Of a DNA stretch of 35,080 nucleotides, positions 2,522-12,815 are shown one piece after another. The position numbers were made by a program, and so were the translations under genes. Every line of letters starts with the position of its first letter. Positions within the stretch are counted from its first letter, which is position 1. The DNA is from Candidatus Peribacteraceae bacterium. Its GTDB lineage: Bacteria > Patescibacteriota > Gracilibacteria > Peribacterales > Peribacteraceae. The DNA is taken from contig JAQTQU010000009.1 of assembly GCA_028712095.1 (NCBI GenBank), positions 1 to 35,080 on the forward strand, written 5' to 3'. Under the pieces are notes generated by a model, which was not told the origin of the DNA, searched no databases, and saw only the letters and a program-made list of their open reading frames with translations.

Positions 2522-3853
2522 ATGCGTAGTCAGGTTTGGGCCAAAGATACGTGGATCCTGGCGGCAATCGTGCTGCTGGGGCTTACGCTCCGCCTGTTTT
2601 CACTCTCCTGGAATATCTTCCCCCACGCTGATGTTGGGGGCGATGTGACAGTGGGAGCACTCTTTCTGCAGACAGGCAGCCTCTGGGAAGAAGCCCCCGA
2701 TCCTCTGGCCCCACGCCATCCCACCCTGTTCCCCATCGATTCCCGCACAGGCATCCCCGCCATGCAGCATGGACCCGTGTGGGTACTGCTCGGAAGCGGC
2801 CTCGCGAGCCTGTGGCACGGATATACAGAAGCAGATGTGTATTTCGCTCTTCGTCTGCTTTCTGTCGTATGCGGAACAGCGCTGATCATGATGCTGTGGG
2901 TGGTGGCACACGCGCTCAACGGAAGAGAGGGCGCGCTCGCGTGTGCACTTTGGGCCAGTATGTCGTATCTGCTGATCGACTATTCCGGTAACGGCGCGTT
3001 CTATGCTCTACAAGGCACGCTCTACCTGCTGTGGATCCTGATCGCACTTCGGAAGCCTTCGGCGAAACGGGCGGCGGCCCTCGGAGCCGTGACTGGATGC
3101 GCCTACCTCGTGAATTATCAATCCATTATTCTGCTGCCTGCCTCGATCATTCTTGAGATCTTCCAATACAAACAGGGACGCCAGTGCCTGCTCAACATGG
3201 TCGTCGTGACGGTGATGGCAGGCCTTCTCGCCTCTCCGTGTCTGATTCGTAATGCCATTCTCGTGGGGGATCCCTTCGGTCATCATCTCGTGAATTCGAA
3301 TTATGTTTTTTCGAAATCCGGTATTCACGCCACCGTGGTGGACAACGTGTACCGATTCCCGAGCAAACGAGAACAACTGACTGCAATCCTCAGCATGGTC
3401 ATGACCTCCTGGTTGCCGAACAATTCCTTCTACATTGCACGAAAGCTCTTCGTTCTGGCTCCCATCGCATTCATCTTCTTCAGTTACGGGCTCATCGGGC
3501 AGGTGCTCACGCGCTCCCGCCGACGCCTGCTTCTGCCGGTTTTACTGCTCTTCGCCGTCCACTTTCTCATTTCGGCCAGCTGGCCCATCACGAAGTTCCG
3601 CTTCTTAGTCCCACTGCTCCCTTTGGTTTTTCTGCTCTCGTACGACGCCATCCGCCATTTCGTGAACAATCAACGAACACGGACGCTCTGGGTGATACTC
3701 ATCACAATCGCTATCTGCTCAGGCTCGGCGCTCACGTACCTCTCCGTCCCCACGCACACCTACTACTACGACGGAGCCATCACCACCGACCCCTTCAGCG
3801 GCCGCGGTGAATGGAACTACCTGCGTGACAAAGGCTACCTCCCCTCCCCATGA
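2522..3853 (+). CDS. polytopic membrane glycosyltransferase (GT39/ArnT-like)
   Basis: multi-TM ORF; start placed at MRSQVWAKDTWILAAIVLLGLTLRL; N-terminal TM followed by an acidic loop typical of GT-C folds. Confidence 0.7.
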   Translation: MRSQVWAKDTWILAAIVLLGLTLRLFSLSWNIFPHADVGGDVTVGALFLQTGSLWEEAPDPLAPRHPTLFPIDSRTGIPAMQHGPVWVLLGSGLASLWHGYTEADVYFALRLLSVVCGTALIMMLWVVAHALNGREGALACALWASMSYLLIDYSGNGAFYALQGTLYLLWILIALRKPSAKRAAALGAVTGCAYLVNYQSIILLPASIILEIFQYKQGRQCLLNMVVVTVMAGLLASPCLIRNAILVGDPFGHHLVNSNYVFSKSGIHATVVDNVYRFPSKREQLTAILSMVMTSWLPNNSFYIARKLFVLAPIAFIFFSYGLIGQVLTRSRRRLLLPVLLLFAVHFLISASWPITKFRFLVPLLPLVFLLSYDAIRHFVNNQRTRTLWVILITIAICSGSALTYLSVPTHTYYYDGAITTDPFSGRGEWNYLRDKGYLPSP

Positions 3854-5090: not shown

Positions 5091-6226
5091 GCGCGCGGGG
5101 GCACAATGGATTTGAGGAAGTCCGCGTACTTCCGAATGAGAGTTTCGCGATCGAATCGGTCGAGGACCTTGCGCGCCTCCTTTCCCAGGCGTTCACGTGC
5201 GGCGTCGTCCTCGATGAGATGCATGATCTTGCGCCGCAGATCCCCTTTACTCCCGTCCGTGAAGATGCCGTTCACGCCCTCCTCGATCACTTCGGGCATG
5301 ACACCCACCGGCGTGGCGATGACGGGCATCCCCATACCCATGGCCTCAAGCGCGCTCCGGGGACCCCCTTCACTCAGGGAATTCATCACGAACATCCGGG
5401 CCGTGAGCACGGCTCCCACCACGTCCTCGGCGGTGGGCAACCAACCGAGAAAGTTGATGCGCTTTCCCATCTTCAGCTCCTTCGCCAGTTGCTCGCAGCG
5501 CTTGCGTTCCGGTCCGTCGCCGATCACGAGCAGACGCACTTCGGGAATATCCGCGACAGCCGCGATGAGCTCGTGAAGCTGTTTGTTGCGCACGAGCCGC
5601 CCGCAGAAGGAGACATCGTACGAAACTGGCGGACGGACATCTTTGGTGAGGAGCACGCGGTCGAGGTAGAACGACGGAACGACCTGCACCTTGGAGGATT
5701 CCACGCCCCATGTTTCGAGAAGAGAGCGTGCGTGCGTATTCACCACCCGAACTTTTGCCGCGCGGCGCGCGTGTCGCGGGAGAATGAAGCGTGAGAGGAT
5801 CCGGCCGATCGTCTCGCCGAGCGAGGCCGCACGCGGGTACCCCACAACATGATGAATCTCGATGGCAAATGGCATTCCGGTACGTCGTGCAAGCAGACGG
5901 GCACCCACGCCGTTATAGAAGGGAGGAAAATCGTGGACCGTCATCACATCGTGACGGTGTTCGGCGGCGAGTTCCTTTCCACGCTTGAAAATCCAGAATG
6001 GCTGGTACCAGAGCCCCTTCGGTGAAGGATGGAAATGCACTTCACCTCCCCCGTCCTGGATCGGGACTGCGGCCCTCTCGCCCGGACGGACAGAAAAGGC
6101 AGGCGCGCGCGGACAGATGATGTCGATGCGATCCCAATGCTTGCGGAGCTCCTGCAGCGTGTACCAGAAGGCACCCCGCTTGCCGTGGAGGACCGATCGA
6201 TCCCCGCTGATCATAAGAAGTTTCAT
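5087..6226 (-). CDS. glycosyltransferase family 4
   Basis: CGRLVRNKQLHELIAAV, EGGPRSALEAMGMGMPVIATPVG; start at MKLLMISGDRS; overlaps the next gene by ATGA. Confidence 0.9.
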   Translation of the reverse strand: MKLLMISGDRSVLHGKRGAFWYTLQELRKHWDRIDIICPRAPAFSVRPGERAAVPIQDGGGEVHFHPSPKGLWYQPFWIFKRGKELAAEHRHDVMTVHDFPPFYNGVGARLLARRTGMPFAIEIHHVVGYPRAASLGETIGRILSRFILPRHARRAAKVRVVNTHARSLLETWGVESSKVQVVPSFYLDRVLLTKDVRPPVSYDVSFCGRLVRNKQLHELIAAVADIPEVRLLVIGDGPERKRCEQLAKELKMGKRINFLGWLPTAEDVVGAVLTARMFVMNSLSEGGPRSALEAMGMGMPVIATPVGVMPEVIEEGVNGIFTDGSKGDLRRKIMHLIEDDAARERLGKEARKVLDRFDRETLIRKYADFLKSIVPPRA

Positions 6227-7395
6227 AGACTCAAAAAAAGTTGGAGATGTTCGCGCGCGACTGCATCCCACCCGCGCGCCGGTGGCGGCAGAGCCGCGGC
6301 TTCCGCGATCTCACTATAGCGGGAACGTACGTCCGCAACCGTCTGCGCAAGTTGTTCCGGTGTTCTGATCTCGCGGAGCACCATGCCGCGCGTGAGCGCG
6401 TCGCCGAATCCCGTCGCGCGTGTGAGGAGCACCGGCAATCCTGCGGCGCGCGCCTCGAGAGCGACATTGGGGCTCAGTTCTGTGATAGAAGGGAGGACGA
6501 GTAAGTCGGCCTCGGCCAGTGTGCGCGCCTTGGCCGCTCCGCCCTGCGACGAGAGGAATATGACACGATCACCGAGTTTGAGCTCCTCCGTGAGCGTGCG
6601 GAGCGGTTTTTCCATGGGACCGTTGCCCACGAACGTGAGCGTGCACTGAGAGAGGAACGCGAGCGACCGAAGGAGAACCGGGAGGTTCTTGAAAGCCACG
6701 AAGCGCCCCATGAAGAGCAACCGGAACGGTACATGTGCCGCGTGCGGTATCGGAATACCGGAAGGCAAGGCGTTCTCGATCACCGAGTGCATCGGAAGCC
6801 GGTACTGGGAACGGTAGAGCGTCTTCTGGAAATCGGTGGAAAAGACAATGTGATCGAATGACATGAGTATCTTCTGCATGATCCACTTGGATTGCGGCTT
6901 CGCTGCGTACCAATCCTTCAATCCTTTTGTGCCGCCGCGATCGGTGTACCGCTCCCAGAAAAAATCCCCGCCGAGGCGCAGCACTTTCTTAGGTTTACCC
7001 TGAGCCGCGCCGAAGGGTTTCTTGAGCCGCGCAAGTATGAGGGGAACGCCGACGCTCACCGACGAGAATGCTTCGACGATATCTGCGTCGGCTGCGACAC
7101 TCTTGAGCACTCTCGCATACCGCCACCACCGCAGTATCGGTCCACCGCTTCGGGGAACAACAGCCACTCGCCACCCTTCTTGATTCTCTTCCCCTTCGTC
7201 CTTACCTGTCCTGAGCGAAGTCGAAGGAGTCCTTAGTCCTAAGTCCTCTGTCCTAAGTTCCAAGTCCTTCTCTCCGTATGTCACCACCCTCACCTCATGT
7301 CCCAACCTCGAAAGCTCCTCAGCCACGCTACGGACGTACGTCGCCGGCCCGCCGATGTCGGGGGGGTAAATCCCGGTAGCAAGGATGATCTTCAT
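6223..7395 (-). CDS. glycosyltransferase family 4
   Basis: MKIILATGIYPPDIGGPATYVRSVAEELSRLGHEVRVVTYG; C-terminal VALEARAAGLPVLLT; interrupted in-frame by STSLRTG and FGAAQGK repeat peptides. Confidence 0.9.
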   Translation of the reverse strand: MKIILATGIYPPDIGGPATYVRSVAEELSRLGHEVRVVTYGEKDLELRTEDLGLRTPSTSLRTGKDEGEENQEGWRVAVVPRSGGPILRWWRYARVLKSVAADADIVEAFSSVSVGVPLILARLKKPFGAAQGKPKKVLRLGGDFFWERYTDRGGTKGLKDWYAAKPQSKWIMQKILMSFDHIVFSTDFQKTLYRSQYRLPMHSVIENALPSGIPIPHAAHVPFRLLFMGRFVAFKNLPVLLRSLAFLSQCTLTFVGNGPMEKPLRTLTEELKLGDRVIFLSSQGGAAKARTLAEADLLVLPSITELSPNVALEARAAGLPVLLTRATGFGDALTRGMVLREIRTPEQLAQTVADVRSRYSEIAEAAALPPPARGWDAVAREHLQLFLSL

Positions 7396-7505
7396 GCGAC
7401 AGGGAGAAAGGGTGCCTGCTTGCCCTGAGCGACCCCGAGCTTTCCTGCCCTGAGCGCAGTCGAAGGGCCGAGGGGGAGCCGAAGGGTGGCGAGGACGATC
7501 TTCAT
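7392..7505 (-). pseudogene. 37-codon stub: 5' end of a second MKI(I/V)LAT glycosyltransferase fused to dispersed repeats
   Basis: minus strand ATGAAGATCGTCCTCGCCACC versus ATGAAGATCATCCTTGCTACC of the intact gene; then CCTTCGAC/CTGAGC-type repeats, TGA overlapping the next ATG. Confidence 0.55.
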
Positions 7506-8359
7506 AGGGGGCTGCGAATATTCTTAAGTTGTGGATTCGTCACCCGCGTATAGCGCTGGGTCGTACGGATATTGGCATGACCGAGAAGTTCCTGCACATA
7601 CCGAACATCGACACCGTTCTCGAGAAGGTGCGTGGCAAAGCTGTGACGCAGAGAATGGAATGTGGCAGGGGTGGAAATTCCCGCTCGGGCGAGCGCCTTT
7701 GCAAAGATCATCTGCGCTGAACGGGCAGAGAGCCTGCCGCCCCGCTCGCTCTCGAACACAAGATCGTTGCCGGACTTTCCGGCAAGGAGATTGAGAAGAT
7801 CCGTCTTGATGCTCTGCGGCAAGACTGTCATGCGGTCTTTCTTCCCTTTTCCTTCTTTGATGTGAATTGTAAGCCCCGCGAGATCCAGATGCCCCGCGCG
7901 GAGATTAATGGCTTCGCTCACGCGCAAGCCGGATCCGTATGCCACCGCGAGGAGCAGCCGGTGCTTTGCGTTTTTTACAGCACCGAGCAGCTTGTTCACA
8001 TCGCCGCGAGAGAGCACCGCAGGCAGAGCACTCGCCTCCTTCGCGGGGCGGATAGAGATCGATTTTCTCAGACGAAGAACATCCCTGTAGAAAAACTTTA
8101 TGGCATGGAGGAGGAGATTTCTCGTTGTCGCCGCTGCACCATCCTGCTCGCGCTTAAGCAAAAACTCCCGGATATTCTCTTCATCCAAAGACGAAAGGGC
8201 ATTCTTCTTGTACAGAAAATACTGACGCAGCGCATGGAGGTACGCATCAATCGTCCTCCGGCTAAACCCCCGCAGGCGCATATCTTCCTGCGCCCTCTCA
8301 AGCGCCGGCTCCATCGTCATAGCTTTTAAGTACTGCGCAACATCCTGCATAAGTGTCAT
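7502..8359 (-). CDS. tyrosine recombinase/integrase (XerC/XerD/XerA-like; candidate integron-type recombinase)
   Basis: AYGSGLRVSEAINLR (Arg I), EGKGKKDRMTVLP, HSLRHSFATHLLENG (HxxR), LLGHANIRTTQRYTRV (His/Tyr); ends KNIRSPL. Confidence 0.93.
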   Translation of the reverse strand: MTLMQDVAQYLKAMTMEPALERAQEDMRLRGFSRRTIDAYLHALRQYFLYKKNALSSLDEENIREFLLKREQDGAAATTRNLLLHAIKFFYRDVLRLRKSISIRPAKEASALPAVLSRGDVNKLLGAVKNAKHRLLLAVAYGSGLRVSEAINLRAGHLDLAGLTIHIKEGKGKKDRMTVLPQSIKTDLLNLLAGKSGNDLVFESERGGRLSARSAQMIFAKALARAGISTPATFHSLRHSFATHLLENGVDVRYVQELLGHANIRTTQRYTRVTNPQLKNIRSPL

Positions 8360-8424
8360 CCTATCTTCATTCGTATAAGATGCAATATTTGTTGTTAGGG
8401 AAATGACTCTTCGTATAGGAAGGA

Positions 8425-8486
8425 GTTATGTAACATAAATTTTTTACCTTCTTCCTGCGGCACCGGTTCCGCTTACGTTCTTTTCG
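8425..8486 (+). repeat. left copy of a ~60-bp imperfect inverted repeat flanking the accessory genes (IR-L)
   Basis: GTTATGTAAC...TTTTTACC...GGCACC...GCTTACGTTCTTTTCG matches the reverse complement of 11091-11148. Confidence 0.75.
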
Positions 8487-8526
8487 CCCCCCAACGAGGG
8501 ATGTTTGTTGTTTTAAAGAGGAGTTC

Positions 8527-8554
8527 GCCCCGCTGCGGCGGGGCTCAGTTTTTT
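8527..8554 (+). terminator. Rho-independent terminator-like hairpin GCCCCGC-TGCG-GCGGGGC-TCAGTTTTTT
   Basis: 7-bp GC stem followed by a T6 tract on the plus strand; no plus-strand CDS ends here. Confidence 0.6.
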
Positions 8555-8670
8555 GATAGGGGGATGTGTGTGTTTGTTGTTTGATTTACTGAGAATTTAT
8601 ACAATTAACTGTTTGTAATTTGGCTTACATAAGCCATTTTAAGTATTTTATTATTAAATATATACTTTCA

Positions 8671-10320
8671 TTATTTTATTCCCCAGATTGCTCCTCTGGT
8701 ATTCCCCGATTTTTTTGTGATGAACCCATTACGCTTTAGCTCTTGAAGCATGTTTGAAATATCTTGACGACTCAGTTCTGGCAATGCTGCTGCGAATTCG
8801 TCCAAATGAGCACCCTTTTCATTTTTCCGTAAATGTTCAAGTATCAACTGCTTTTTTACATCTCTGGAAAGACCCTTAAGCCTTATATATTCACCCTGCT
8901 TATTTTTTGATGTGTAATAGTTGTGAGAAAGCATATACCTAGTACCCTTTGTCCTACCGACTTGCTCCACAATCCCGATGTCCAGAAAAGACTGGACTTC
9001 TTCTTTTGCAGGAGATGCATCTCCACTTTCCATTGCCTGCAACAGTACAATATCACCAAGTGAAAGATGTACCTGTTTTTCATTAATGACACGTTCAAGA
9101 TATTGCAGGAAGGCAGGGTTCTTTACCTGTGCTGAAACAGTCAGTACAACATCATGCTTATCAGTACCGGAAAAATCCGGTATGCCTTTACCTTCTTTGA
9201 TAGTCTCTTCAAAAACCGTATCCATCCCCTGTCCTGCACGTTGTACAAGTCCAACATGCTGCAGCGCCTCTGCTAGAAGTCTGTTTCTTGGCGTACTCTT
9301 TCTGATGATATTTTCCGGCGTCACCCCCGGAAGGAAGCCCCCCGGACTTTGAATGGTAAACTCCTGTGGCGACTGCTTGATGATAATTGATCCTGGTTGT
9401 CTGTAATCACGATGCGTAACAGCATTGAGAATGATCTCTTTGGTCACCTTTTCGTTGAATGCGGGAATCTCCGGCGTGAAGAACCCTTCCTGCATCTGGG
9501 TAATCTGATTACGTGAGACGATCTTATCCCACAATCGATCCTGCACCCGAAAGAAAGCGGCACGATAATCCACACGATCCTGATATTCGATGGCGTCTTT
9601 GTTATTACGATACTGGAAGATGATTTCAGCATTTGGGAGATGTGTACGCAGAGATACTTCAGTGCCCAGAAGAATTAGTGCGGCATACGTTAAACCTTCC
9701 TCATTGCGAAGCTCCAGATCATTCAGAAGCTGAGACGAATCAGCCGTCGTACGATGACGACGCTCGTAGAGCGCCTGCATCACACCGAGAGCATCACTAT
9801 CAACATCATCCATCGTCATGCCAGAGACAATTTGCGCAGAATAATCCGTATCTTGCTCAAGGAGAATATTGCGCTGCGTCTGGTCATCCATTTCGTGCAG
9901 CTCTTCGCCGACCCGCATGAGTGGAATTCCGTAGAACTTAATAACTTCCCCAATTCCCCTTGGTGGAATGTGTATCACAAGCACTCGTCTTTCTTGCTCA
10001 TCAAGAAACTCATCGATATCGATGCGTTTTCCCAAACAATTGAATATCTGTTCTTTTGCCTTCGTGATATTCGGAATGGCACTCGTGCCAACAATCTCCT
10101 TCTGGTTATTCACGCCCAACACTAGCAAACCACCGCCCTCATTGCCCAGAGCAACAGCATACCCATACACGGAATTCTTTTGCCGCCTCTCGTTCCTTTC
10201 ACCGCTGCCAAGCAGCGAATAGTCGTTTGACGCAGTTTTGAACTCTACATGTTCATGCTCGGATGTGTTGCGCAGTAGCTGACGAAGTTCGTGAAGGTTC
10301 ATATCAGTATTATGGCGCAT
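8671..10320 (-). CDS. AlbA_2 (Schlafen-type) DNA-binding / RecG-related ATP-binding domain protein
   Basis: EHEHVEFKTASND...GYAVALGNEGGGLLVLGVNNQKEIVGT; KEIILNAVTHRDYRQPGSIIIKQSPQEFTIQSPGGFLPGVTPENIIRKSTPRNRLLAEAL; C-terminal winged-helix-like. MNLHELRQ at 10302 may be the true start. Confidence 0.88.
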   Translation of the reverse strand: MRHNTDMNLHELRQLLRNTSEHEHVEFKTASNDYSLLGSGERNERRQKNSVYGYAVALGNEGGGLLVLGVNNQKEIVGTSAIPNITKAKEQIFNCLGKRIDIDEFLDEQERRVLVIHIPPRGIGEVIKFYGIPLMRVGEELHEMDDQTQRNILLEQDTDYSAQIVSGMTMDDVDSDALGVMQALYERRHRTTADSSQLLNDLELRNEEGLTYAALILLGTEVSLRTHLPNAEIIFQYRNNKDAIEYQDRVDYRAAFFRVQDRLWDKIVSRNQITQMQEGFFTPEIPAFNEKVTKEIILNAVTHRDYRQPGSIIIKQSPQEFTIQSPGGFLPGVTPENIIRKSTPRNRLLAEALQHVGLVQRAGQGMDTVFEETIKEGKGIPDFSGTDKHDVVLTVSAQVKNPAFLQYLERVINEKQVHLSLGDIVLLQAMESGDASPAKEEVQSFLDIGIVEQVGRTKGTRYMLSHNYYTSKNKQGEYIRLKGLSRDVKKQLILEHLRKNEKGAHLDEFAAALPELSRQDISNMLQELKRNGFITKKSGNTRGAIWGIK

Positions 10321-10366
10321 TATGTAAAATAATCACGCTTAAGCTACAATCCCCTTTGAATTGCTT

Positions 10367-10993
10367 ATGGAAACTATCGGAATCATATTATTGGCCGTAA
10401 TAGCGTACTTTCTCTGGAAAATCTATAACCAGCGCGAAGAAGAGGAAAAACAAATTGCAGACGAAAAGTTTGATGCTGAATGGGAAGCAAAGAAAAAAGA
10501 AGAATTTAAAGACTATCCACATCTATTAGGAAATGTGGACAATTCTTGGTTAGAACTTTTTGGAAGGCATTATGTTCAAAAGAATCTTCCGTTCCTAAAC
10601 GCAGCGTTTTTAATGTATTTGAAAGAAGCAAATAATACAAAATTGGATATCATGGAAGTAGATCACCTGTTTAATTCATTATGGGATCTTACAGAGGAAC
10701 TTCTTGAGCATTTAGAGAAATATCACGAAAGCACCAAATATGAATACGAAATAGCAATCATTACATTCTGGCAGCTGACTGCACAAGAAGCAGAATCTTT
10801 TATGGGAAAAGATGTCGAAACCATTAAAAGAATGTTCCAGACTTCACCATTTACTGATATAGAAAAAATCCCTTCATGGTTTCCTAAAAAAGAAAATCAC
10901 CCCGACAAAGAGCTAACATTCAGAGATGAAGAGGGCAATTTCCCAAGAGAATCAAAAGGCTCCAAACTTATCCATGAAAGAATAACAGTCTAG
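10367..10993 (+). CDS. hypothetical protein, N-terminal single TM anchor plus alpha-helical soluble domain
   Basis: METIGIILLAVIAYFLWKIYNQREEEEK...; no family recognised; AT-rich codon usage. Confidence 0.75.
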   Translation: METIGIILLAVIAYFLWKIYNQREEEEKQIADEKFDAEWEAKKKEEFKDYPHLLGNVDNSWLELFGRHYVQKNLPFLNAAFLMYLKEANNTKLDIMEVDHLFNSLWDLTEELLEHLEKYHESTKYEYEIAIITFWQLTAQEAESFMGKDVETIKRMFQTSPFTDIEKIPSWFPKKENHPDKELTFRDEEGNFPRESKGSKLIHERITV

Positions 10994-11012
10994 AATTGGA
11001 AATTGTTAAGTT

Positions 11013-11061
11013 TTTTGGGCTCCGGGCATTCACCCCTAAACCCTCTGCCCGTCGCCCAAAA
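11013..11061. repeat. bulged palindrome TTTTGGGC-tc-CGGGCA ... TGCCCG-tc-GCCCAAAA
   Basis: read directly; symmetric 14-bp paired arms with 2-nt internal loops. Confidence 0.6.
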
Positions 11062-11090
11062 CGACGAGTTTGTTTGTTGTTTTTCCGCCC

Positions 11091-11148
11091 CGAAAAGAAC
11101 GTAAGCTACAGGTGCCTTGGAATACGGTAAAAATTGACGTTACATAAC
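11091..11148 (-). repeat. right copy of the ~60-bp imperfect inverted repeat (IR-R)
   Basis: CGAAAAGAACGTAAGC...GGTGCC...GGTAAAAA...GTTACATAAC, reverse complement of IR-L. Confidence 0.75.
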
Positions 11149-11287
11149 AGCGGGTGTGCGGTTCGTCGCAGCGCTGTTTTTCAATAGACATGGATGGCAC
11201 TGCTCCTCACCCAAATCCGGCGGTTGTAGGGCGCTATCGCGCCAAATTATACAACCGCCGTACTTCGCACGCCCGCAAACGTTGGGC
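11142..11287 (+). other. attC-like recombination site 1 (146 bp)
   Basis: R''-like ACATAAC, arm GCGGGTGTGCG pairing with CGCACGCCCGC, apical stem CGGCGGTTGTA/TACAACCGCCG, R' GTTGGGC (GTTRRRY). Confidence 0.7.
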
Positions 11288-11345
11288 GAAAGAAATGCGG
11301 CTACGAAACTGTTTAGAATGCAAATTTGGTATACTATGTCTCACT

Positions 11346-11543
11346 ATGGAAACAGAAGTCACAATCTTCGTACGGGAATTCATTTATCCAGGACAAGAGC
11401 CGACTCTACCAGGAGCCGATGTCACAGTGCGTGAAGTTTATGGAAAAGGATCTAATGTCACCATACATCGAGAAAGTGGCATTTCACGTAGAGAAGCCGA
11501 ACAGCTTTTGAGACAAGCTAGTCTTAGCCCAACCGTTTGGTAA
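11346..11543 (+). CDS. 65-aa hypothetical protein, single ORF of a putative gene cassette
   Basis: METEVTIFVREFIYPGQEPTLPGADVTVREVYGKGSNVTIHRESGISRREAEQLLRQASLSPTVW; sits between two attC-like boxes; the longer upstream start would read through the attC-like site. Confidence 0.6.
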   Translation: METEVTIFVREFIYPGQEPTLPGADVTVREVYGKGSNVTIHRESGISRREAEQLLRQASLSPTVW

Positions 11544-11559
11544 TCGCCGCATTTCCATC

Positions 11560-11704
11560 GCCTAACACGGGTTACCCGGTTCGCATGGCTTCTTTTCAAA
11601 TCAAATTTGGTCGCAGCCATGCTTCTCCCAAATTTGACGATGATCTAACACTCCGCGTTAACATTTTATCATCATCAATCTTCGCATAGCCCGGAACGTT
11701 GGGC
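11560..11704 (+). other. attC-like recombination site 2 (145 bp)
   Basis: R'' GCCTAAC (RYYYAAC), CGGGTTA/TAGCCCG arms, internal stem GCATGGCT/AGCCATGC, R' GTTGGGC; same terminal box as site 1. Confidence 0.7.
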
Positions 11705-11744
11705 GAAAAACACACCACGCGGGCCGGTATTCACTTCTCAATGC

Positions 11745-12815
11745 TTACTTCTTCTGAGAAACCGCATCAAACGCCTGCTGCTCTTTGGCAAACTGCGCCT
11801 TGCTGAAATCTGCAAGCAGCCAGTCGGGGTGCTGCACATACCACTGCACGGTTTTTTCGAGACTCTGCTCGAATGTCTTGGGATACGCGAATCCCATTTC
11901 TTTGAGCTTGGACCCGTCAAGCGCGTACCGCAGGTCGTGTCCGGGACGGCTGGAATGAAAATCCACAAGCTCATACTTGAGCTCCTTGCCGATGACCTTG
12001 GCAATGAACTGCGCAAGCGAGAGATTATCAACCTCCTTCTCTCCGACGATATTGAATTTGTCCCCGAGAATCGGCACACCCTTCTCATGCTGACTGATCA
12101 AAAAGAGCATGGCCGCCGCCACGTTGCGCGCATGCACGTAGAAGCGGGTCCCCGCCTTCGTGCGGCTGGGATCGGAATGGACGAACAACCGCTCGCCGTG
12201 AAGAACGGCGTTGATCACTTTGGGAATGTATTTCTCGGGATGCTGCCGCTCGCCGAACACGTTCATGGTGTGGGTGACGACAACCGGGAGTCCGTAGGTA
12301 TTGAAGTAGCTGTACGCCAGCTCCTCGCCGCCGGCTTTGGTGGCGGCATAGGGATTGCTCGCCTTGTAGCGATCCCATTCCTTGTAGGCCACTCCCTCCG
12401 GCGCCGGGCCGAAGACTTCGTCGGTGGAAAAGTACGAAAGCAGCTCCAGACCGTCTAATGTGCGTGCGTAATCCAGCAGATTGCACGTGCCCACCACGTT
12501 ATCCTGCACAAATTCCATGGGATACTCGATCGAGCGATCGACGTGCGTGGATGCCGCAAGGTGGAAGATGTAGTTCACCGGCCCGATGCGGTTTGCGACA
12601 TACGGATTCACGGGGGAACGCAGATCGTGATAGACGAACTCGACCCGTCCGGCGAATTGCTTGCTCCACAGATCGATATCCGTGAGACGGTGCAGCGTGG
12701 AGGCGGAATCAATCTTGCTCAAACCCACCAGCTTCCAGTCGGTATTTTTGAGGATCCCCTCGGCAAAGTGATGGCCGATGAAGCCGTCAATTCCTGTGAG
12801 CAGAACGCGTTTCAT
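11745..12815 (-). CDS. NAD-dependent epimerase/dehydratase, dTDP-glucose 4,6-dehydratase-like (RmlB family)
   Basis: LLTGIDGFIGHHFAE, YFSTDEVFGP, NPYAATKAGGEELAYSY, NVFGERQHPEKYIP. Confidence 0.92.
   Translation of the reverse strand: MKRVLLTGIDGFIGHHFAEGILKNTDWKLVGLSKIDSASTLHRLTDIDLWSKQFAGRVEFVYHDLRSPVNPYVANRIGPVNYIFHLAASTHVDRSIEYPMEFVQDNVVGTCNLLDYARTLDGLELLSYFSTDEVFGPAPEGVAYKEWDRYKASNPYAATKAGGEELAYSYFNTYGLPVVVTHTMNVFGERQHPEKYIPKVINAVLHGERLFVHSDPSRTKAGTRFYVHARNVAAAMLFLISQHEKGVPILGDKFNIVGEKEVDNLSLAQFIAKVIGKELKYELVDFHSSRPGHDLRYALDGSKLKEMGFAYPKTFEQSLEKTVQWYVQHPDWLLADFSKAQFAKEQQAFDAVSQKK

Follow-up and report, generated by a model that had tools for sequence, protein, structure and literature searches.

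An integron-like cassette array with an I2-less tyrosine recombinase in a Patescibacteria genome

We analyzed a 35,080-nucleotide stretch of a Candidatus Peribacteraceae genome (contig JAQTQU010000009.1 of assembly GCA_028712095.1), here called the window. It very probably carries a Patescibacteria platform for integron-like cassette capture, driven by an I2-less integrase of the Xer/XerA type; recombination itself is untested. The platform comprises a tyrosine recombinase gene (7502-8359, minus strand), a dif-like attI, and two cassettes (8426-11281 and 11282-11698). Its fixed chromosomal flanks, both on the minus strand, are a glycosyltransferase gene (6223-7395) and an rmlB-like sugar-nucleotide dehydratase gene (11745-12815). 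Four same-genus genomes have an rmlB-like ortholog with 90 to 96% identity; in two of them, and in G024 from another genus, it comes directly after the glycosyltransferase gene. An earlier note on this DNA had recognized the minus-strand recombinase, which is present directly left of the span 8360-11708, and had described that span as AT richer, as its GC content confirms (about 0.39 to 0.47 versus 0.55 to 0.60 in the surroundings). The note proposed an integron or integron-like cassette array within a surface-glycan locus, probably of a CPR-type host. This proposal is supported by the attI, two folded attC sites, slot variation with G^TT breakpoints, and homologous loci in CPR genomes. The recombinase fails the test for the IntI-specific domain, and we therefore use the wording "integron-like, I2-less." The attI (8410-8436) had been missed, as had the fact that the 2.9-kb stretch before the first site is a single cassette with complementary ends. 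An Rfam scan at the gathering threshold matched tRNA and nothing else.

The recombinase has 285 amino acids and no I2 insert (Phage_integrase, 3.8e-41). We compared it with IntI and Xer profiles, as the earlier note had suggested. The best curated family is TIGR02249 (integron integrase), with a score of 204 bits that is below the cut-off of 265 and a match in two pieces; scores with the curated XerC and XerD profiles were 182 and 175 bits, below the respective cut-offs of 335 and 330. The best solved relative, 2a3v (IntI4), was again matched in two pieces. The spacing from KGxKxR to HxLRH is 64 amino acids, versus 106 in IntI1 and an acidobacterial IntI, and a structure model of the recombinase contained no predicted extra I2 helix. 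An I2 domain near patch III is specific to IntI, and the recombinase does not meet this criterion; the domain is described as needed for IntI activity (Messier and Roy, cited in PMC9668308 and PMC7790495), which counts against our best explanation. The short spacing is common to all 13 aligned family members and to the other CPR homologs where the distance was measurable; a seemingly longer homolog from Kuenenbacteria had stops in the called frame and was left out. A different gene, located elsewhere in the genome, encodes the housekeeping Xer; the recombinase is accessory and is not the housekeeping XerC/XerD.

The same data bear on whether this is a canonical integron that has degenerated, with an IntI that secondarily lost I2. 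Such a loss would suit the TIGR02249 and IntI4 matches and the architecture and G^TTRRRY boxes, which match those of integrons. In the recombinase tree, however, the CPR family forms its own clade (25 of 26 CPR rows; support, 99/98) outside the sampled IntIs, which group as one clade on a long branch (100/100; only six IntIs were included). Further I2-less homologs surround both clades, and the short spacing throughout the family also speaks against secondary loss, which we consider quite unlikely. Our own reading is that the locus belongs to an I2-less integron lineage of Patescibacteria and is not a canonical integron. No recombinase-family member was among the matches listed in a search of viral contigs (best segments, 24 to 40% identity), and therefore the system is not phage-borne as far as seen. 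In phage and plasmid records, the matches were limited to IntI1 and other, more remote recombinases, none of which reached 60% identity.

The attI core (8410-8436, plus strand), 65 bp away from the recombinase start codon, consists of the L box TTCGTATA and the crossover between G8425 and T8426, followed by the first cassette's R arm. It is a dif-like inverted repeat (TTCGCATAA ... TTATGTGAAAT). The 27-bp site is conserved across CPR loci, with the first cassette beginning at G^TT, and a gap-free alignment of 17 of the 19 extracted loci reads TTCGYATA-N5-GAG^TTRTRYGAAAT. An attI beside the integrase gene with a G^TT crossover is a criterion for integrons, and it is met here. A second L-type box, TTCGTATAA (8370-8378, plus strand), lies upstream of attI, and several homologous loci have a similar box about 40 to 45 bp upstream of attI. 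The box is possibly an accessory attI repeat or a -10 element, although its role is inferred. A consensus scan of the window for a cassette promoter (Pc) gave no strong sigma-70 match at attI; little is known about promoters in CPR bacteria.

The two attC sites, both on the plus strand, lie exactly where the earlier note had placed them, attC1 at 11142-11287 (146 bp) and attC2 at 11560-11704 (145 bp). R'', an unpaired CCCAAAT, and R' occupy 11142-11148, 11210-11216, and 11281-11287 in attC1 and 11560-11566, 11627-11633, and 11698-11704 in attC2. The terminal box said to be shared, AACGTTGGGCGAAA, is indeed found at 11278-11291 and 11695-11708, the only two places in the 1.25-Mb genome that have this 14-mer. 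The R''/R' grammar claimed for both sites is complete in attC2 (GCCTAAC/GTTGGGC) but not in attC1, whose R'' (ACATAAC) is one base off RYYYAAC. There is no further R'' match after 11698, so the array ends at attC2. A covariance model built from 20 sites, with attC1 and attC2 both among its training members, matched these two and nothing else in the genome (106.9 and 98 bits; E values of 6e-26 and 2e-23). The expected folding into attC-like hairpins was also obtained: over the 20 sites, the three helices are 84% paired, a value reached by 0 of 500 shuffles and compared with about 30 to 40% in slid controls, and both sides change in 20 of the 25 base pairs. The covarying helices are an L stem (TATGCG/CGCATA), an inner arm, and an extended R stem. 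Integrons require a foldable R''-L''...L'-R' attC whose structure is kept more than its sequence, and this criterion is met.

These folds have to be weighed against a module-like system in which a Xer-type enzyme acts on double-stranded dif-like sites and the hairpins are irrelevant. The dif-like attI would fit such a system, as would a palindromic candidate dif beside the genus' housekeeping xer (sought only for comparison with attI) and the Xer-driven modules documented in Acinetobacter (PMC6449649, PMC13141974). However, the three attC helices covary as folded structures, and each cassette has one site, about 70 to 195 bp long across the family, in uniform direction with a dedicated recombinase gene adjoining; we find the module-like system unlikely. 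The pdif (dif) modules of Acinetobacter plasmids likewise consist of genes between Xer-type sites, but their sites are short and double stranded and they have no recombinase of their own, unlike the CPR arrays with one large folded site per cassette. The locus does not meet these criteria for a pdif module.

The attC sites of this I2-less lineage also lack an integron hallmark. In 16 of 20 sites the L stem is continuous and free of bulges, with 8 or more of its 9 core pairs formed; the L-stem bulge test fails cleanly in 4 of the 20, which we count against our best explanation. The criterion of extrahelical bases in the L stem, where I2 docks them, is not met. Other unpaired bases flank the L stem, and an equivalent of extrahelical bases elsewhere is therefore possible. 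The R stem reaches about 20 bp and contains a 2-nucleotide mismatch, conserved at positions 10-11; between two arms lies the motif CCCAAAT, which is conserved as well. End complementarity in class 1 cassettes also passes the 7-bp R box, reaching about 12 bp in aac(6')-Ib (few cassettes with a start were found), so some lengthening of the R stem is shared with class 1. What sets the present sites apart is a stem as long as about 20 bp, and its mismatch. Only seven classical attC sites, all class 1, were extracted, and they were heterogeneous and aligned poorly with MAFFT, so that no classical model was available for comparison.

Cassette 1 (8426-11281, plus strand, 2,856 bp) contains two divergent ORFs and attC1. 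One ORF encodes a Schlafen AlbA_2/RecG-C-like ATPase and runs against the array direction (8671-10320, minus strand; Pfam SLFN_AlbA_2, 2.3e-8; HATPase_c_4, 3.8e-11), and the other encodes 208 amino acids of no known family (10367-10993, plus strand). Cassette 2 (11282-11698, plus strand, 417 bp) contains attC2 and a 65-amino-acid ORF of no known family (11346-11543, plus strand). A search of 38 relatives gave no counterpart of this ORF, which fits a cassette but says nothing about function. The start of cassette 1, GTTATGT (8425-8431), is the exact reverse complement of its R'', and the complementarity of its ends runs for tens of base pairs (8425-8490 with 11085-11148); the ends of cassette 2 are 86% complementary (11281-11301 with 11546-11566). 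Across 14 loci, R'' was more complementary to the start of its own cassette than to that of the next in 56 of 61 cassettes (p = 4e-11), and at positions 13-20 it pairs at about 70% with its own start versus about 25% with the neighbor's. Judged from sequence, this own-end complementarity is the trace that circular cassettes would leave. One cassette is duplicated inside a single array (92% identity), and near-identical attC sites occur in different families. Arrays reach about 16 attC sites, mostly with single co-oriented ORFs (50 in the same and 13 in the opposite direction), and the cargo includes enzymes, restriction-type nucleases, and at least one rifampin ADP-ribosyltransferase (Arr) gene. 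The window array has two cassettes only, and the large ORF of the first is opposed to the array; this copy could therefore be inactive.

A comparison of siblings showed that the contents of the chromosomal slot vary at G^TT, as the earlier note had anticipated. Three relatives, two of them from the same genus, have an empty slot (G003, G004, and G024), and four others, one of them from the same genus, carry different cassettes there (G001, G015, G021, and G029). A mobile cassette array that varies between relatives, mostly with one co-oriented ORF per cassette, is an integron criterion that the system meets. The 288 genomes examined from the class include 111 with the attC family, 87 with the recombinase family, and 70 with both (odds ratio, 16; p = 4.6e-22). 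On contigs with a recombinase, 57 of 58 attC sites were upstream of its gene, in antiparallel orientation. No attC was detected in 17 of the 87 genomes with a recombinase and no recombinase in 41 of the 111 with attC; fragmented assemblies or CALIN-like remnants could account for both. Canonical IntI was present in 1 of the 288 genomes. The named genomes that have homologous loci belong to Peregrinibacteria, Gracilibacteria, Wolfebacteria, and other CPR bacteria. The window alone, with two sites and given that XerC-like genes are universal, might be an ordinary Xer recombinase near unrelated repeats or terminators that resemble an array by chance. However, the housekeeping Xer is a separate gene, and the sites occur in the genome only at the recombinase locus and are linked to the recombinase family genome after genome. 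Chance is refuted statistically by covariation, the covariance search, linkage, and own-end pairing, and we give it practically no credence.

The I2-less platform shares with sedentary chromosomal integrons a divergent recombinase, an adjoining attI, the G^TTRRRY crossover, and short single-ORF cassettes with a foldable attC whose R'' pairs with the cassette's own first bases. It differs in the absence of I2, the dif-like attI, and attC sites with a bulge-free L stem, a long mismatched R stem, and CCCAAAT. Archaeal XerA, Xer on dif, and XerH/difH have the same domain layout and length without I2, and their dif arms resemble the attI arms, but the CPR gene is a dedicated accessory at a cassette array with attC hairpins, apart from the housekeeping Xer. 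In CTX-phi integration via XerC (PMC7790495), a folded single strand mimics dif for a recombinase without I2; that case involves a phage genome and the host Xer, without cassettes or arrays. By analogy, it is a mechanistic precedent for the reaction proposed here.

In our proposed mechanism, the recombinase would bind the attI adjoining its own gene and cut after G8425. Incoming cassettes would be circles with one attC each, of which one strand would fold so that the L stem and the R stem of about 20 bp mimic a dif-like double-stranded site; the extended R stem would arise by joining the cassette's own two ends. Recombination of attI with a folded attC at G^TT would insert the cassette next to attI, and attC x attC or attC x attI recombination would excise it. 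The extended R stem with its mismatch, together with CCCAAAT, would replace the missing contact between I2 and the extrahelical bases. The sites, fold, own-end complementarity, slot variation, and linkage to the recombinase were computed directly; the reaction by this recombinase, the single-stranded substrate, and the replacement of I2 are inferred.

The I2 helix has been described as the innovation that enabled a Xer-like enzyme to recombine a folded single-stranded attC (PMC7790495), and candidate-phyla bacteria are not among the integron carriers in a 2021 review (PMC8618304). With a widespread cassette system that has a hairpin attC but not I2, the origin of integrons can be tested directly, and the question is whether an I2-less enzyme still selects one strand and avoids second-strand exchange, and what it would use instead of I2. 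Because an I2-less recombinase and related arrays occur across the phylum, the system could show how integrons arose. We suggest only tentatively that this is a phylum-wide lineage whose integrase never had I2 and whose hairpin imitates dif, either a surviving pre-I2 stage or an independent second invention of cassette capture. The system would explain accessory loci that IntI-centered tools would probably miss, an inference made without an IntegronFinder run, and it would offer the reduced, host-dependent genomes of Patescibacteria a route of gene acquisition.

The block upstream of the tyrosine recombinase gene is AT-richer and contains two attC sites, attC1 (11142-11287) and attC2 (11560-11704), exactly as the earlier note had described. 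We aligned 20 attC sites taken from homologous loci. RNAalifold gave an L''/L' stem of 12 pairs, 9 with compensatory double changes, and the three-helix structure was 84.4% paired, with double changes in 20 of 25 pairs; slid controls were only 29 to 40% paired. The covariation score was 0.539 versus 0.175 ± 0.018 for shuffled alignments (0 of 500 shuffles reached the observed value). The covariance-model search that the earlier note had proposed, run with our own model of the 20 sites, matched both attC coordinates and nothing else in the 1.25-Mb genome (97.7% complete; the window is contig C27). The model was trained on both sites, so their scores are in part circular; the lack of any other match in the genome is not. 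We conclude that both attC sites are real.

The recombinase (7502-8359, minus strand; 285 aa) is intact. Its top family was the TIGR02249 integron integrase, at 204 bits in two pieces versus a cutoff of 265, and its closest solved structure, by sequence and by fold, was IntI4 of Vibrio cholerae (2a3v). The KGxKxR-HxLRH spacing is 64 residues, against 106 both in IntI1 and in an IntI from an acidobacterium. No IntI-type insert (I2) was found in a 13-member family alignment or in the AlphaFold model of the recombinase (mean pLDDT, 86; pTM, 0.60). Phylogenetically, IntI (n = 6) was monophyletic (100/100), and 25 of 26 recombinases from candidate phyla (CPR) formed a separate clade (99/98); around both sit I2-less homologs from Bacteroidota, Spirochaetota, Bacillota, and Archaea. 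The IntI-specific domain has been termed a defining characteristic (PMC9668308), and gain of I2, which docks extrahelical attC bases, has been described as the step to single-strand recombination (PMC7790495). Unlike canonical integrons, whose IntI carries I2, the window system has a recombinase without it; correspondingly, where canonical attC sites have extrahelical bases for I2 to dock, no bulge interrupts the L stem in 16 of 20 sites of the window attC family.

The attI site (8410-8436) follows the consensus TTCGYATA-N5-GAG^TTRTRYGAAAT, to which the sites of 17 of the 19 loci extracted, all from CPR genomes, aligned gap-free at 54 to 289 bp from the recombinase start. In its two arms, TTCGCATAA ... 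TTATGTGAAAT, the site is a dif-like inverted repeat and resembles E. coli dif, GGTGCGCATAATGTATATTATGTTAAAT. The genus has a separate palindromic candidate, AACATAATGCATTTTATGTTAA, adjoining the housekeeping xer (G000:C25:12654-12677 in the window genome; also G001:C7 and G004:C19) and conserved in three of five genus genomes; it is likely the dif of the genus.

The R'' of attC1, ACATAAC (11142-11148), matches GTTATGT (8425-8431), close by the recombinase, better than the downstream GTTGGGC. The two ends of cassette 1 stay complementary over tens of bases (8425-8490 with 11085-11148), and the ends of cassette 2 (11282-11698) are also complementary (11281-11301 with 11546-11566). Among 61 cassettes from 14 loci, the R'' side at positions 13 to 20 paired 64 to 80% with its own cassette start versus 18 to 38% with the next; own pairing exceeded next in 56 and the reverse held in 4 (Wilcoxon P = 4e-11). 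From sequence alone, we interpret own-end pairing as the signature of former circles joined at G^TT. R-stem positions 10 and 11 hold a conserved mismatch, usually A/C opposite A/G and A opposite C (10 to 13% paired).

The chromosomal slot between the glycosyltransferase and rmlB genes varies among relatives. G003 and G004, from the genus of the window genome, and G024, from another genus in the family, have a gap of just 148 to 421 bp, with no attC between the two genes; in G002 the slot is filled by 1.6 kb of unrelated DNA. In G001, of the same genus, at least one cassette with an attC of the window family lies beside rmlB before the contig breaks off (L162; G001:C24:12000-15607); it encodes an Arr rifampin ADP-ribosyltransferase (PF12120, 3e-48), and arr is well known as a class 1 integron cassette gene. 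In the slot, G029, G021, and G015 carry the recombinase, attI, and an array whose cassettes differ from those of the window, and parts of L178, a locus from another genus, match the window attI and cassette 1 ends at 83 to 87%. The differences among relatives at G^TT boxes that the earlier note had asked to look for are present, in other genomes and not same-species siblings. The glycosyltransferase start region (7375-7395) is repeated just before the recombinase 3' end (7485-7505) as an 86% direct repeat, which may be a remnant of the original insertion.

Named relatives, together with TGA-recoded kin of theirs, place the host in the class of Peregrinibacteria/Gracilibacteria. Across 288 class genomes, the attC family occurred in 111, the recombinase family in 87, and both in 70 (odds ratio, 16; P = 4.6e-22). 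This P value is overstated since related genomes are not independent; the association was seen across many families. Counts are also rough because assemblies are fragmented, often just upstream of the recombinase. The attC was upstream of and antiparallel to the recombinase for 57 of 58 sites listed on recombinase contigs (28 genomes). Phylum-wide, 45 of 287 sampled genomes had matches. A canonical IntI above the cutoff was found in only one class genome (G234:C21:2406-3344, locus L272; 460 bits), which also carries an I2-less recombinase and attCs; it reflects either transfer or a binning error.

Several arrays are long, with 16 (L170), 12 (L174), and 11 (L171) attC sites. Cassettes mostly hold a single ORF, co-oriented with the array in 50 of 63 cassettes having one, and products include methyltransferases and NUDIX, GNAT, macro-domain, isochorismatase, and HNH proteins; some of these names rest on sequence alone. 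In L174, a 506-bp cassette stretch occurs twice at 92% identity (3337-3842 and 7814-8319, reverse-strand coordinates). Cassette 1 of the window carries, against the array direction, a Schlafen AlbA_2/RecG-C-like ORF (8671-10320) with partial matches to Argonaute-associated models (PADLOC), possibly making it a defense or regulatory cassette. Sites of attC with 93 to 98% identity were found in different families, including three at 93 to 95% (L036, 10131-10242; L175, 4960-5072; L061, 6176-6288). One of these lineages bears the name Gracilibacteria, whose members are TGA-recoded, suggesting putative cassette exchange across genetic codes.

We propose that folded attC would display the L stem CGCATA/TATGCG along with an R stem lengthened to about 20 bp; the two stems jointly would resemble the dif-like attI. 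An I2-less enzyme might require the longer R stem, and polarity could come from the conserved R-stem mismatch and the unpaired CCCAAAT. A precedent is CTX-phi, where a hairpin imitates dif for XerC (described in PMC7790495). The attC structure is established computationally, and its role in recombination is our inference.

No papers pairing integrons with these bacteria were found in the open PMC literature (subscription papers and preprints were outside the scope), and candidate-phyla bacteria are absent from the integron carriers listed in a 2021 review (PMC8618304). In named loci totalling about 1.1 Mb, nearly all good attC-model matches fell in CPR loci; those above 23 bits elsewhere were only in a Treponema locus (L072, 428-600, minus strand; 34 bits) and a Chitinivibrionales locus (L105, 14769-14920, plus strand; 28 bits), both weak and near I2-less recombinases, in Treponema in the same arrangement as in CPR loci. 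I2-less cassette systems may extend beyond Patescibacteria. The window system is integron-like in its working, with recombination inferred, yet it lies outside the integrons by the definition tested here.
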